Source: an uncultured bacterium
GTDB taxonomy: Bacteria > Verrucomicrobiota > Lentisphaeria > Victivallales > UBA1829
Length of the DNA stretch: 64,000 nucleotides
Assembly: GCA_949297765.1 (NCBI GenBank)
Contig: CASFTV010000001.1
Span: 62,001 to 126,000, forward strand
Direction of reading: 5' to 3'
Positions 593 through 7,502 of the stretch are shown in pieces. Both the position numbers and the translations under genes were made by a program. The notes under the pieces were generated by a model. That model saw nothing but the letters and a program-made list of their open reading frames with translations, did no database searches and was not told the DNA's origin. The first letter of the stretch is position 1; each line of letters opens with the position of its first letter.

Positions 593-1351
593 TTACTCTT
601 TCGCCATCCGGTCCAGCATGTCTTCCGCTTCCCGGAGAATCTCCGTCGAGCTCAGAAGTTCGTTGCGGATGGAAAGTTCCGCAATGTCGATCCGGATCGG
701 CTGTTCCGCATCCTCTTGCCCTTTGGGAAGAAGCGTGGAGAACAGCGGCTTTTTCGGATAGAGATTCTCCTTTTCGTACGCCCGGATCGACTTCGATGCC
801 GCAAGTTCTCCGTTCACAAACAGCTGAAGATCGCCGGAACGGTTCGCCGAAAGCGTCAGAACAGTCCACTTGCCCGGCTCGATGCGGAGATCCCGGTTCA
901 TGCGGACGGAGACAAAGTGGTTGCTTTTTTCATTGCCGGACACCGCCACAAACAAGCCGTATGCCTGCAGCCCCTCCTTGTCCGCCCGGATGCCGAGACG
1001 AAGTCCCGGTTTCCGAAGACTGCCCGCTCCCGCGTAGAGCGGGTAGGCCTCTCCCGATTTTCCTTCCGCACGAAGCAGAACCGTGAAGGTCAGGTTCTCC
1101 GTTCCGCAGCCTTCTCCGCCGGAAAGCTGATACAGCGTGCTGGAGCCGCTCTGATACCGCGCGATCGTTTTTCCCTTTTCCTGTACGGCTTCGACTCCGG
1201 TTTTGCTGGAGCCGGTGGAGAAGTTCTTATGCAGTTTTTTGTTCCAGCGGTCCTGAAGAACCGTACCCGGAGCAACCTCCAGGAGCGTATCGGCCGGAAG
1301 AAGCGCGGCGGTGCACAATGCGCCGAGGACGATGGAAAGTTTTGCGTTCAT
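593..1351 (-). CDS. Secreted LamG/concanavalin-like lectin domain protein
   Basis: 252 residues. ATG at 1351 is chosen over an upstream in-frame ATG because AAGGAGG lies 8-9 bases before it and because it overlaps the previous stop as ATGA (translational coupling). A signal peptide is visible (MNAKLSIVLGALCTAALLPA). The rest has the beta-sandwich features of LamG/laminin-G-like folds: GCGTENLTFTVLLRAEG, then WTVLTLSANRSGDLQLFVNGELAAS near residues 150-180. Such domains bind glycans or act as jelly-roll accessory modules. No catalytic motif is seen. In this cassette it is probably a carbohydrate-binding or enzyme-accessory protein of the cell envelope. The exact family is uncertain. Confidence 0.7.
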   Translation of the reverse strand: MNAKLSIVLGALCTAALLPADTLLEVAPGTVLQDRWNKKLHKNFSTGSSKTGVEAVQEKGKTIARYQSGSSTLYQLSGGEGCGTENLTFTVLLRAEGKSGEAYPLYAGAGSLRKPGLRLGIRADKEGLQAYGLFVAVSGNEKSNHFVSVRMNRDLRIEPGKWTVLTLSANRSGDLQLFVNGELAASKSIRAYEKENLYPKKPLFSTLLPKGQEDAEQPIRIDIAELSIRNELLSSTEILREAEDMLDRMAKE

Positions 1352-4300
1352 TGCTGTTCCTCCTTGAAAATTTCGATTCCGTTGATGGCGGGGTCGCCGC
1401 CGGCCTTGATGGTCAGCAGTCCCCGTTTGACTTCCACATGTTTCCACGTCTCCACCGCCGCGGACTGGAAGCCGCCGCCGAGATGGACCGGATTCAGATT
1501 TTTCCGGCTCGTGCCGCCGACCTGAAGATGGAAGGTCCGGCCGTTTTCGCGGTTCGGCGCATAGGTCTCCGCAAAATGGATCTTTACGGTATAGTGTCCG
1601 TTCGGGAGGGGAATCTGATAGAACATCTGCGAGCCGTAGGCTTCGGTTGTGAAGATCTCGGGAAAGTCCGTGTTTTTCACGGTGATTCTGCCGCGCGAGA
1701 CAAATGTGCCGTATTCGCAGCCGTAGGCGTTGAAGCCGGTGTAGAGCTGATCGGCGAACCAGAGGTTGCCTTTGGAATCGGTCAGGTCCTCCGGTGCGCC
1801 GCAGTTGATCCGCGCTACGCCGCGCTCATTCAGTTCCCGGACGAGGCGCTGCTGTTTTTCCATCTGCGGTTTGCTGTCGAAGAAGCGTTTGGCATAGAAG
1901 AGAACTTCAAAATCGTCCATCTCCTTTTTCAGAGCATAGATGTCCCTGGTTTTCAGGAACTTCGCAATCCGGCGGAGATTTTCTTCCGGGATTTTCCGGG
2001 TGAGGGAGCGTTCCTTGAGAATCTGGTTCCCCATCAGGAGAATCTCCTGTTCATCCTTCGGAAGAAAACGGAAAGAGCCTTTGAACTTCTCCGCTCCGCC
2101 TTCCGAGCGCCAGACCAGGAGGGAGAACGGACGGATGGAAAGAGTCTGTTTCCCGCGGAAGGAACCGTCATAGACAAGATCCTCGAAGGAGCCCGGATAT
2201 TCCAGAGTTCCGGTCAGAGGGAAGGGGGTCGCGTTGATCAGGATCAGGTAATTGCCGAGGAAGCGGGCATCGACGCCTTTCACGGAGTTCTGCTTCTGCG
2301 ATTCGCCGGTCGGAATGCTGTAAAAGGCTTTGAGGAAACGGCGGGCCTGATCGCCGTGGGCGGTCGGCAGATTGATGTCGTTCCATGTGTGGAAAACGTG
2401 CTTCGGAACGTGGCTGCGGATCAGCGGGATCAGATCCGCATAGGCGAAGTCTCCGGCCCCTTTCCGGTCGTAGACGGTGACGTTGTTGGCGCGCCAGTAC
2501 CATCTTTTCGCGGCTTTCGCGTGCGTGCCGATGTTCTCATTGAGTCCTGCGCAGGTGAGGGCAAGCGCATCGTTTTTCCGGTAAAGCTCCATGGAGCCGC
2601 GGTTGGTGTTCCGGCCGTAGAGATGGAGATCGGCGTTGTTTTCAAGTCTCCTTGCGGTGTTCGCTGTGGCGATGAGAATGACGCCGTCTTTTTTCTCTTT
2701 TCCGTAGAGTTCCTGCGGAAATCCGGCCTCCCGCTGAATCCGCTCCATGTATTCGTCGCGGACCTGCGGACGGATTCCGGCGGTGTTGAACGCATTCCGT
2801 TCCTTGGAGATTTTCGCCGGCCAGGAGAAGAGCTGCCATTTCTGCTTGCCCGAGCTGACAATCTTCCGCATTTCGAGCAGTTTTTCCCGGATCTTTTTTC
2901 CGCGCCATGCAAAGAACTGCTGTTTGTATTTTCCGGTCAGGAGTTCATAGCGGGCGGGGAAGCGTTCCGCACCGGTGCGGGGGAGGTTGAGATGGATTCC
3001 GGTGTCGTGCTCAAACTGCTCCACGGAATCGTCGTCGTAGCCGACTTCCGCGGCTTCCATGTTGGAGTAGGAGGGGAAGCCGGGCAGCCACCAGCCGCCG
3101 TTCAAGGTGACGAGTCCTTCCACGTTCCCGATTCCGTCGTAGCGCTCGTAAAGTTCCTTCAGCAGATCCGTGACCGTTCCCCAGACGACCGGATTCATGC
3201 AGTTGAGTCCCATGCCCATGTAGCCGACCACCTGCCGTCCGTAACGGTCGATCATGTAGACGGAACGTTTTTTCCCCGCATGGACCTCGGCGTCGCTGGT
3301 GTCGTAAGCGCCCATCGCGTCGAGCGCCGAGGAACGCATGTATTCAAAGCCGACAAAGGTTTTGATGTTGTTGTGTTTGTAGAGTTTCAGCAGCGCGTGA
3401 TAGTAGTCGAAGCGGTCGTTGTTCAGCACGATCTGAGAGTGACGCGAAGAGAAAACTCCTTTTTCATACATGAAGGCTCCTTCGACGCTGGCATTGTGTC
3501 CCTGAAAGCGGAGAAACTGGATTTTCCGCGCAATCGCCCGATAGGCGTTGAGCCAGGCTCCGTCGTAGTACTGCACCAGATGCGCTTCGGTTCCGTAGGC
3601 GAGCGCGTTTCCGTACGAGCCCCATGCGTTGAAGATGAGACGTTCGTTGTGATTGCCGTAGGTCCGGTCGGTCTTCGGGATCTTGAGCGCGGGAAGTCCG
3701 CCTTTGACCGCGTAGATGTTGATCTCGCAGACCGCCGCCGGAATGCCCGCACGTCCGTTCTGGACGAGCAGTGTGGTATTTTTTGTCCCGGGGAAGAAGA
3801 CGTAGCGGAATTTCTTCTTCCCGTTGCTGAGCGGATAGAGATCCCCCGTGGACACCGTTCCGCTGGCGTTCGGCCAGGCCTTGCTCCCGAGCGACGGAGT
3901 ATTGTGCTCCATGCCCGCCGGGACCGTTTCCAGGACGGCGCTGTAGATATAGCGGTCCGCATCGTCCGGAATGACCAGTTCCGCGATCATTGCTTCGCCG
4001 GTGGACGGCAGATTCAGTTGATAGCAGAAATAGTCCAGCAGTCCGCTTCCCGTTTCCCGGTATGTCATGCCGTTCCGGGTGACGACTTTTCCCGCATTGA
4101 GAGTTGGTTTGGTATATTTGCCCGTGTGATCCAGAAAGGTGTCCGGCGCGGGATTCGGATCGGTACAGTCGATCTTCTGGACAAGCTGAAGACGTTTTTC
4201 CAGCTCCTGTTCAAAGTCCTTGAGGGCAAACTCCTCCTGCGCAATCGGACCTGCGATTATCATTTCCCCGCGGCAGGTGTCGAGTGTTTTTCCGTTGGAG

Positions 4301-5670
4301 CCGAGGGTCCAGAACGTGCGGTAGGCTCCGGTTTTGCGGAGCTTCGGACGAACGGTGAATTCCCGGAAATCCCCGTTGACGCGGGAGGAATCCACCATCA
4401 GACTCTCCTGAAGAGTATTGGTGTCGGCTTCCCGGATCTCCAGTCGGAGCGTCGGCCGGACGAGTCCGGCGGGGACGCGGACCAGCCATGCGATCTCCTT
4501 GTCGTAATCGAACACCGGATAGGGCGTCCCCTGTTCACGGATCTCCAGCAGTCCCATGTGATCGGGCGCAAAGCCGGTGGAGATCGGCGTCTTGTTCGGA
4601 AGATATGAGATTCCCGCGCTCCGGAGCACAGGCGTCTGCCAGGTTTTGACCGCAAAATCCGGCTTTTCCCATCCTTCCGGAGCCTGATAGCTCCAGCGCC
4701 ACTGCCGGTCGCCGGGAATGCGCAGAATTTCTCCGTTCCGCCCGATAATGATCCCTTCCAGCTGGAGGGCGGAGTTCTGCGAAAGTCCGCCGTAGAACTG
4801 GTCGCGGATGGCGATGACGTTCTTTCCCTGCTTCAGATGCCGGAGAAGATCGAACGTTTCAACGCCCGTCCGGAGAATGTGCTTTCCCGATGCGATTTTC
4901 TCTCCGTTCACGAACACGTCGTAATTTCCGGTCTTGTGCATCCAGGAGAGCTTTGCGGCGATCGGACGGAACGGAATCTGTATCTCCCTGCGCCAGAAGA
5001 GATTGCCGGAAAACGGGACGATCCGGATCGAGCGGATGCGGATGTTCGCGCCGGGAGTGCGGCATTCAATTTTCAGTCCCCGCGCAATCTGCGGAACCGG
5101 ATAGCCGATCCAGCCCATTTTCCGGATGAATTTCTGACGGCCCCTGCCTTTGATCGAGAAAAATTGATTGTTCGAATAGAACTTGGAGTCTCCGCTGGAG
5201 CGGGAGATCATCCAGTCGGTTTTTTCGACATCCTGTTCGATCTCCAGTTCGATTCTCCACGCGTTGGAGCGATCCTTTCCCCATCCGGCTCCGAAGCGGA
5301 TGGCCGGGGTTTTTTCATCGCCGGGCCCGGCGCCGAACTGCATGCTCCATCCTTTTTTCCCGGTGCGGAACTGGAGCGCCCCGTCGGAGATCCGGTACGG
5401 TGCAGAGGTCTTGATCCCGAATTCCCGGAACAGATCCGACTGGAAAACAAACGGTTTTCCATACTGAATCGTGAAAAAGTCGTCCGCTGTTTCAAAAAGT
5501 TCATCGGGACGGATTTTCCGAGTCGCGTCCATGATCTGCGTCCGCCAGAGATTGTTCTCCTTTGCGCTGACGGCGATTCCCATTGTCGGCCCCGGCGTAT
5601 AGATCAGCTCCTGCGCGGAAAGAAGCGCGGAAGAGAGGAGAATTCCTGCAAAGATAGGATTCCGTTTCAT
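1348..5670 (-). CDS. Large secreted glycoside-hydrolase-like protein with C-terminal malectin domain
   Basis: 1440 residues with a signal peptide (FAGILLSSALLSAQ). Around residues 230-300 lies a GH2-type sugar-binding jelly roll (NYDVFVNGEKIASGKHI, later GKNVIAIRDQFYGGLSQ). The central third reads like a TIM-barrel glycosidase (NERLIFNAWGSYGNALAYG, KTFVGFEYMRSS, YDGIGNVEGLVTLNGGWWLPG, VGYDDDSVEQFEHDTG). The last 160 residues form a malectin-type module (VARINCGAPEDLTDSKGN, HFAETYAPNRENGRTFHLQV, GGDPAINGIEIF), known to bind disaccharides. Its stop overlaps the LamG-like start by 4 bases, and it begins 25 bases after the pseudopilin stop. I infer an exported polysaccharide-degrading enzyme. The GH family is not assigned and the catalytic acids are not pinned down. 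Confidence 0.75.
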   Translation of the reverse strand: MKRNPIFAGILLSSALLSAQELIYTPGPTMGIAVSAKENNLWRTQIMDATRKIRPDELFETADDFFTIQYGKPFVFQSDLFREFGIKTSAPYRISDGALQFRTGKKGWSMQFGAGPGDEKTPAIRFGAGWGKDRSNAWRIELEIEQDVEKTDWMISRSSGDSKFYSNNQFFSIKGRGRQKFIRKMGWIGYPVPQIARGLKIECRTPGANIRIRSIRIVPFSGNLFWRREIQIPFRPIAAKLSWMHKTGNYDVFVNGEKIASGKHILRTGVETFDLLRHLKQGKNVIAIRDQFYGGLSQNSALQLEGIIIGRNGEILRIPGDRQWRWSYQAPEGWEKPDFAVKTWQTPVLRSAGISYLPNKTPISTGFAPDHMGLLEIREQGTPYPVFDYDKEIAWLVRVPAGLVRPTLRLEIREADTNTLQESLMVDSSRVNGDFREFTVRPKLRKTGAYRTFWTLGSNGKTLDTCRGEMIIAGPIAQEEFALKDFEQELEKRLQLVQKIDCTDPNPAPDTFLDHTGKYTKPTLNAGKVVTRNGMTYRETGSGLLDYFCYQLNLPSTGEAMIAELVIPDDADRYIYSAVLETVPAGMEHNTPSLGSKAWPNASGTVSTGDLYPLSNGKKKFRYVFFPGTKNTTLLVQNGRAGIPAAVCEINIYAVKGGLPALKIPKTDRTYGNHNERLIFNAWGSYGNALAYGTEAHLVQYYDGAWLNAYRAIARKIQFLRFQGHNASVEGAFMYEKGVFSSRHSQIVLNNDRFDYYHALLKLYKHNNIKTFVGFEYMRSSALDAMGAYDTSDAEVHAGKKRSVYMIDRYGRQVVGYMGMGLNCMNPVVWGTVTDLLKELYERYDGIGNVEGLVTLNGGWWLPGFPSYSNMEAAEVGYDDDSVEQFEHDTGIHLNLPRTGAERFPARYELLTGKYKQQFFAWRGKKIREKLLEMRKIVSSGKQKWQLFSWPAKISKERNAFNTAGIRPQVRDEYMERIQREAGFPQELYGKEKKDGVILIATANTARRLENNADLHLYGRNTNRGSMELYRKNDALALTCAGLNENIGTHAKAAKRWYWRANNVTVYDRKGAGDFAYADLIPLIRSHVPKHVFHTWNDINLPTAHGDQARRFLKAFYSIPTGESQKQNSVKGVDARFLGNYLILINATPFPLTGTLEYPGSFEDLVYDGSFRGKQTLSIRPFSLLVWRSEGGAEKFKGSFRFLPKDEQEILLMGNQILKERSLTRKIPEENLRRIAKFLKTRDIYALKKEMDDFEVLFYAKRFFDSKPQMEKQQRLVRELNERGVARINCGAPEDLTDSKGNLWFADQLYTGFNAYGCEYGTFVSRGRITVKNTDFPEIFTTEAYGSQMFYQIPLPNGHYTVKIHFAETYAPNRENGRTFHLQVGGTSRKNLNPVHLGGGFQSAAVETWKHVEVKRGLLTIKAGGDPAINGIEIFKEEQQ

Positions 5671-5695: not shown

Positions 5696-6406
5696 TTATT
5701 TCAGCCAGCCGAGACCGCGTCCGTAGATCTGCCATCGCGGGTCTGTTGTTGTATTGGTCGTATGGACGGAGGTCGAGATCTCCCCGACATGACCGTCCAG
5801 AAACTCCACATTGCAGTTGCCCCCCGGTTTCCAGACTCCGCCGGCACGAAAATCGGTGCTTCCGCCGGGACCGTGAACCTGATAGTAATGGCGATCCCCG
5901 GACGGCACAACCGGGCGTCCCCAGCAACTCTCCACAATCAGATACCGGATCGACGGCTGGGTGATCCGCGCCAGATTCACATAGTGATCCGCAAAGTTCT
6001 GATATTGGTCTCCTCCGGAAACCCCTTCCAGACAGGAAAGACTGGAGATCATTGCATAGCTGATCTCGGGATCCATGCATCGCAGAAGTTTCGCATTTCC
6101 GAAGTTTGCCCCTGCGCTGCTCTCTTTTTCGACGGGAATCAATTTGGCCGCCCAGAGTTTCCCCATCCAGTTCTGCATGTTCGCCGGATAGCCGTTGGCC
6201 TGATCGTTGCCCGCCGGAAGACGGCCCGAGTCCTGTTCATACTGGAAAAAAGCCAGCCCCAGCTGTTTCAGATTGTTCTTGCAGGCCGTGCTTCTGGCGG
6301 TCTTCCGCGCGGAATTCAGCGCAGGAAGAAGAAGTCCGGCAAGAATGGCAAGGATCGCAATGACGATAAGAAGCTCAATTAAAGTAAATCGTTTTCTCTG
6401 TTTCAT
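5696..6406 (-). CDS. DUF1559-like protein with type II/IV pseudopilin N-terminus
   Basis: 236 residues. The short basic leader MKQRKR is followed by [20 protein letters not shown], the classic type IV pilin/pseudopilin methylation segment with Glu at mature position 5 (residue 11). The residue before the Phe is Arg rather than the usual Gly. [21 protein letters not shown] stretch follows, typical of DUF1559/H-X9-DG proteins abundant in planctomycete and lentisphaeral genomes. The C-terminus ends [12 protein letters not shown], keeping the DG but with no His nine residues upstream. RBS GGAGAA precedes the ATG. It lies 3 bases after the LacI gene and just before the big glycosidase. An envelope-tethered, possibly fibre-forming or glycan-handling protein is inferred; none of the family's proteins in such loci is functionally defined to my knowledge. 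Confidence 0.85.
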
Positions 6407-6409
6407 TTT

Positions 6410-7425
6410 TTATTCTCCGTATTTTAATTTTGATCGAAAGGGTTCATAGTAGGGATCCGCGAGCTGGAGATCGCGATAGGATCGGAGTTCTTCCGGAGAG
6501 AAGAAACGGACAGGTTCTTTTCTGTGAAGAACTTCCGCTCCGGGATGTTCCAGCATTTGAATCATCCGATGGACGATTCCGCTGAGACGATGCTTGAAGT
6601 TGCAGACCGTCACGCCGATGATCGCCGGATCGTCAATGTAGTCGCAGGGAAGCGCGTAGCTGTAAAACAGATACGGCGTCGGCAGTCCCAGTTCCCTGCA
6701 TTTGCGGCGCAGCAGCTTGATGTAGATGCTGGAATCGGCGGCCACCGCATCCGGACGCAGTTCCTTCAGAAATTCAAAATTTTCCGCGTCCGATGTGGCT
6801 CTGCTCCGTCCGCCGACAATCTCGACTCCGTGCGTCGTCAGCACTTTTTCCAGAATGTCCGACCAGGAGCGATGGGGTACCAGAACTCTCCGGCATCCCA
6901 GTTCGCGGATTTTCCGGGCCACCTCTTTGAGCGCTTCCTCCAGATCCAGCGCCGCACTGTTGAAGCCGGGATGGGCTGAACTCAGCTGGAGAATCGGATA
7001 ATCGTTCATTCCCAGCTCATTCAGAAGATCTGCGGGAAAAAGGTTCAGGGCGTGAAAGATTCCGTCCGCCTGCCGGGAAAGCAGGTTTTCAAGGGTGCGG
7101 CGTTCCTCCTCCGGATTGAAATGAGTGAGGCCGATCAGCAGCTGATAGCCGTGCCTGGAACATTCATCGAGAAGGGTCTGGACGAAAAAACTTCCGTACT
7201 CGCTGCAAAGGTTGGCGGTGACAAGTCCCAGCGTTTTGCTCCGTCCTTTTTTCAGTGCCAGTGCCGTGGCGGATGGTTCGTACTTCAGCTCCTTGACCGC
7301 TTCGTCGATTTTCTGTTTCGTCGATTCCGCAATCCGCGCCGCCAGCGGACGTTTGTTCAGGTACAGCGACACCAGCGACGAGGAAACCCCACCCGTTTCG
7401 CAATATCTTTGATCGTCGCTCTCAT
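6410..7425 (-). pseudogene. LacI-family transcriptional regulator, frameshifted in the HTH
   Basis: From ATG at 7425 the frame reads MRATIKDIAKRVG, the canonical first helices of a LacI HTH. It is then thrown out of frame in a run of four C (7387-7390, G on the coding strand). One extra G would join it to VSSSLVSLYLNKRPLAARI and the full ligand-binding domain (SKTLGLVTANLCSEYGSFFV onward), giving about 338 residues. As read, only an alternative frame from ATG at 7435 is open; it replaces helix 1 of the HTH with unrelated residues. The rest of the gene is intact, so this is either a recent mutation or a base-calling error in a homopolymer. It heads the glycan cassette, 3 bases before the pseudopilin gene, and a LacI-type palindrome sits in its own promoter, implying autoregulation. 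Confidence 0.75.
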
Positions 7426-7451
7426 CCGAAACCATCCTGTTTTATTTCTTG

Positions 7452-7465
7452 TTCAAACGTTTTAA
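7452..7465. promoter_or_regulatory. LacI-family operator candidate
   Basis: TTCAAACGTTTTAA contains the perfect palindrome AAACGTTT around a central CG, the usual design of LacI-family operators. It lies between the -10 hexamer and the start codon of the lacI-type gene, covering the probable transcription start. That position would allow repression of the whole cassette. Confidence 0.6.
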
Positions 7466-7473
7466 CAAAGAAT

Positions 7474-7502
7474 ATTATAGCACATTTCCGGAGATTTGAC
7501 AA
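7474..7502 (-). promoter_or_regulatory. Sigma-70 promoter of the LacI/pseudopilin/glycosidase cassette
   Basis: On the minus strand, TTGTCA (7497-7502) and a perfect TATAAT (7474-7479) are separated by 17 bases. It lies about 50 bases upstream of the regulator start. The five genes downstream have gaps of 25 bases or less or overlap, so they may be one transcript. Confidence 0.7.

Follow-up and report, generated by a model that had tools for sequence, protein, structure and literature searches.

We found that a LacI-family regulator gene heading a gene cassette of an uncultured Victivallales bacterium is one base short within its helix-turn-helix (HTH). The gene lies on the minus strand, from its start at 7425 to its stop at 6410 of the window (the whole 64,000-nucleotide stretch analysed, G000:C1:62001-126000), and its reading frame breaks at a run of four G (four C on the forward strand) at 7387-7390. 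In our judgement, a real and recent one-base deletion at codons 12-14 (rough probability 0.57) is somewhat likelier than an error in the consensus, the evidence for the missing base being a single base in one draft consensus.

The reading frame breaks within the HTH

Translation of the minus strand placed the two parts of the HTH in different frames. The frame begun at the ATG at 7425 holds the start and the first HTH helix (MRATIKDIAKRVG, 7387-7425, by translation and homology) and reads, over its 22 codons, MRATIKDIAKRVGFPRRWCRCT, continuing after the four-G run at 7390-7387 with FPRRWCRCT until it meets a premature stop at 7359-7357. One base off, the frame running from 7387 to 6410 (VSSSLVSLYLNKRP..., 325 codons and a stop) carries the recognition helix, the hinge and the putative effector-binding part of LacI, intact to the stop; its translation over this span reads VSSSLVSLYLNKRPLAARIAESTKQKIDEAVKELKYEPSATALALKKG... 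A complete two-helix HTH is thus found in no single frame of the window gene. A frameshift at this place had been claimed by the first-pass annotation, whose coordinates and reading of both frames proved exact. Measured against intact homologues, the frame-disrupting lesion makes the gene a candidate pseudogene in the given consensus.

A protein search covering 61 genomes returned matches in 48 of them, and the best LacI match outside the window lay on contig C38 of G002, a related metagenome-assembled genome (MAG) of the same genus and the nearest relative compared. This homologue is 67% identical over the post-break part and opens, in a single frame, with MRATIKDIAKRVGVSNSLVSLYLN, its first 13 residues being identical to the 13 pre-break residues of the window LacI. 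We aligned the DNA of the window gene with eight homologues (five from other genomes and three same-genome paralogues, out of 31 other loci), and found one column at the break that is absent only from the window (one of nine aligned sequences). All eight homologues thus have one more base, in keeping with the earlier claim of a one-base break, and both HTH helices lie in one frame at all 17 non-window loci that were read, including L028 and L031, where the open reading frame (ORF) just extends farther upstream. Because the 13-residue identity and the 67% post-break identity come together with a single-column gap unique to the window, the break is not a product of chance. The comparison with relatives, which the first-pass annotation had put forward as a check with five Gs as the deciding sign, yielded instead an additional in-frame base in the homologues, which show no G tract at this place; none of them is of the same species. 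A contig scan for a second genome of the species gave 11 peptide-pattern matches, none encoding a relative, in a collection from which very near records were possibly left out; a scan with the family alignment gave 14 loci, and neither the titles nor the identities to the first row of the alignment marked any of them as close to the window gene.

LacI repressors bind via their HTH, which is followed in the LacI/GalR family by a hinge motif of the Y-x-P-S-x-x-A-x-x-L type. The window protein carries this hinge (YEPSATALALKKG), and the columns of its Y, P, S, A and L are invariant in eight sequences. The N-terminal half of the G002 homologue aligns with the chains of the LacI/GalR repressors CcpA, Cra (FruR) and PurR, and in a phmmer comparison its alignment to CcpA extended up to residue 184; the window copy differs from all three in having its HTH divided between two frames. 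Pfam detected no periplasmic-binding-protein-like effector domain in either the window protein or the homologue, and no NCBIfam model scored above its cut-off for the two.

The promoter and a putative operator are undamaged

Upstream of the gene we located a sigma-70-like promoter on the minus strand (TTGTCA-17-TATAAT with a TG before the -10, 7474-7502) that matches 11 of 12 consensus positions, against a mean of 0.2 in shuffles, and sits at the same position upstream of homologous genes. Directly downstream of its -10 lies an operator-like palindrome, TTGTTAAAACGTTTGAACAA (7449-7468, palindromic at 18 of 20 positions), which is the exact reverse complement of the corresponding G002 site and the sole site in the window at no more than three mismatches. 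With its central CG and zero mismatches to the pattern drawn from the homologues, it is, by its sequence, a putative operator. Both elements are undamaged in the window. Palindromes of the TTGTTgAAACGaTTcAACAA type recur right after the -10 before LacI genes of different genomes, suggesting conserved autoregulation.

The regulator heads a syntenic cassette

Three nucleotides after the LacI stop, and likewise on the minus strand, follows a pseudopilin-like gene (N_methyl, DUF1559; 5696-6406), then a gene for a 1440-aa protein with a C-terminal malectin domain (1348-5670) and one for a LamG-like cassette protein just below the Pfam cut-off (593-1447). Identity to G002 amounts to 76%, 91.6% and 80%, respectively, and to 69% for a protein of about 410 aa farther along. 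The cassette gene order is the same in G002, and this synteny with the related MAG, together with the shared promoter and operator, bears out the earlier claim that LacI heads the cassette. Its description as a 'glycan' cassette fared less well: malectin, LamG-like and NPCBM domains favour it weakly, but no catalytic glycosidase family scored above cut-off in Pfam or NCBIfam. None of the papers listed by the literature searches dealt with this LacI regulator or its cassette.

Two side observations concern the cassette genes themselves. The two genomes share the 1440-aa malectin-domain protein (G002:C38 7226-11839) at 92% identity, as against 67% for the adjacent LacI and often 50-70% for other shared genes, which points to strong conservation of this gene or to its transfer. 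Furthermore, LacI genes are often followed by a prepilin-like (N_methyl/DUF1559) gene, overlapping or within about 200 nt. Within the window's own genome a motif search recovered this pairing for 6 of the 13 LacI matches, to which inspection by eye added L021, and in other genomes it occurred at four of five loci (window 5696-7425; L002-L004, L006, L021-L023, L027, L030 and L031). We consider the recurring pairing of wider interest than the frame break.

The post-break frame is under selection and any loss is recent

Compared with G002, the post-break part carries 79, 55 and 159 substitutions at the three codon positions, with a dN of 0.24 and a dS of 1.18 (dN/dS about 0.2), and over the first 60 codons dN is 0.09 at a dS of 1.18. 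The downstream LacI frame is under purifying selection. We found no further lesion in the 325 post-break codons. As 118 of the 2925 possible single substitutions would create a stop (about 4%; 2.6% when transition-weighted) and none is present in the 975 bases, any loss must be recent, with a neutral period of less than about 0.12 substitutions per site (a rough 95% bound).

Frame breaks are uncommon along contig C1

The draft genome comprises 4.23 Mb in 92 contigs and is 98.4% complete. We mapped the ORFs found in 1.93 Mb of G002 onto C1, over its first 400 kb (part of one contig, out of 4.2 Mb), and asked how many were split between frames. Unfiltered, 3 of 103 placed ORFs looked split; all three were rejected as antisense shadows of adjacent plus-strand genes, the substitutions in their longest pieces concentrating at ORF position 1. 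A codon-position filter dropped 42 such shadow-like pairs and kept 85 (42,227 codons), none of which was split between frames. In three of the 85, a stop interrupted the frame near the N-terminus (query positions 20, 36 and 52), and we took these as ORFs extended upstream of the true start. When C1 ORFs were placed on G002 instead, with 41 pairs dropped as shadow-like, 1 of 73 was multi-frame and three had stops. The multi-frame ORF, outside the window at G000:C1:225530-226570 (locus L058), lies in two frames against G002 and possibly reflects a broken frame there or a gene fusion. Overall, indels are not common in the assembly.

The sensitivity of this test falls off towards the ends of genes, which is why the LacI break went undetected in it. 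A separate N-terminus test, run without the shadow filter on 124 pairs, 56 of which had at least eight unaligned residues, did find LacI, with a score of 56 where shuffled sequences never exceeded 21. Five non-LacI ORFs ranked above it, and L073 fell between LacI and a LacI paralogue placed at the same locus. Two of the five (C93 and C19) were checked and are antisense shadows; the other three (L134, C90 and C77 7037), as well as L073, were set aside as shadow-like or chance matches by judgement alone.

Alternative readings of the frame break

The chief competitor to a real deletion is a consensus error, whereby the cells carry an intact LacI and one G was lost from the run, which lies in a G-rich stretch (CGGGTGGGGTTT). 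An error would leave exactly the intact frame that we see, with the remaining gene perfect and under purifying selection, the promoter and operator whole and every homologue examined in frame; a draft of 92 contigs also leaves room for it. Against it speak the rarity of frame breaks along C1 (none in 85 pairs) and the shortness of a four-base run for a homopolymer error when hundreds of longer, more error-prone runs exist (on C1, 319 G/C runs of five, 63 of six, and 177 A/T runs of seven or more). We hold a consensus error to be possible, at clearly less than even odds. A third reading starts a functional 341-aa regulator with a new N-terminus at an ATG at 7433-7435, to which the post-break frame runs upstream (MVSDESDDQRYCETGG-VSSS...) and from which it is open to 6410 as a mechanical ORF. 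This ATG has no in-frame counterpart in the nearest homologue, an AGGA stands nine bases upstream of the start at 7425 whereas none is found at the usual spacing before 7435, and the Pfam LacI match falls from 50.3 bits over the whole profile (1-46) in the G002 homologue to 28.4 bits over positions 10-46 of 46 in the window protein (P0001), making this reading the least credible of all that we considered. A gene caller would probably annotate the 341-aa LacI protein from 7435, without the first HTH helix.

Two further readings invoke slippage on the G run. The run sits exactly at the break, and slippage there could turn the repressor on and off, giving a mixed population or a reversible switch, much as the first-pass annotation had suggested in proposing that the tract could vary between cells. 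Phase variation normally relies on longer tracts. Passages of a survey of homopolymer-tract phase variation in Neisseria apply a cut-off of six, yet mention C5/C6 strain variation for one gene (PMC5084427). What the window gene has in common with the Neisseria genes is a run of G where the frame is broken; it differs in that the tract is four bases long, short of the six or more expected of a hypermutable tract, in that no tract is conserved at the break position in the eight homologues, and in that one length state is seen in a single consensus. Nothing singles out 7387-7390 among the 229 G/C runs of exactly four in the window either, so that the suggested variation found no backing and a switch appears very unlikely. 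More improbable still is a rescue during expression, in which -1 ribosomal slippage on the run, or slippage of RNA polymerase, yields some full-length repressor. A P-site tRNA (Gly-GGG) could re-pair perfectly on GGG one base back, and the protein so made would have an HTH like that of the family. On the other hand, the break occurs in none of the eight homologues, and neither a slippery site nor the frame change is conserved as a programmed -1 frameshift would require; by its sequence and on general knowledge, the heptamer G GGG TTT disallows A-site re-pairing; and transcription slippage in an Escherichia coli lacI construct is said, in part of one report, to require about nine bases in a row (PMC3694819). 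A real, recent deletion thus remains our preferred reading.

Discussion

Supposing that the cells do lack the base, a ribosome starting at the ATG at 7425 would stop after 22 codons. The C-terminal part of LacI would then have the misplaced ATG at 7435 as its sole possible start and would be missing the first HTH helix. Such a protein should fail to bind the operator, and loss of operator binding is likely. Assuming that the intact repressor normally represses its own promoter, its loss could raise transcription of the cassette, as in E. coli lacI- mutants, and the cassette may possibly be constitutive. Polarity could act in the opposite direction and lower expression of the next genes, because LacI is the first gene of the transcript and about 950 bases would go untranslated after the premature stop. 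A paralogue might bind the operator instead, for example the C4 copy, which has a similar palindrome, and the in-frame ATG at 7435 could also alter the outcome.

Frame loss in LacI-family genes is an ordinary kind of event. According to parts of one study of E. coli, frameshifts inactivating lacI are frequent through a hotspot, and lacI- mutants go to fixation when populations evolve with lactose in the laboratory (PMC8233506). The window gene shares with these mutants, as described there, the loss of frame in a LacI-family gene and an expected derepression of a catabolic operon (PMC8233506). In E. coli there is a hotspot for slippage and the phenotype was measured, whereas the window gene offers one base in one draft genome, a run of four G and sequence only. 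Unlike in E. coli, the repressor gene of the window lies inside the cassette transcript, and polarity may oppose derepression. That the break is both real and selected, amounting to a natural lacI- type derepression of a lectin-domain cassette, possibly in mixed cells of which part express it without inducer, seems unlikely to us.

Whether real or an error, the case illustrates that an in-frame ATG can conceal a frame break from a gene caller. If the break is an error, so is the 341-aa annotation that starts at the ATG at 7435 and lacks the first HTH helix. If it is real, it would represent a natural loss of a repressor in a lineage rich in LacI-headed cassettes, and the regulation predicted for one of these would need revising.
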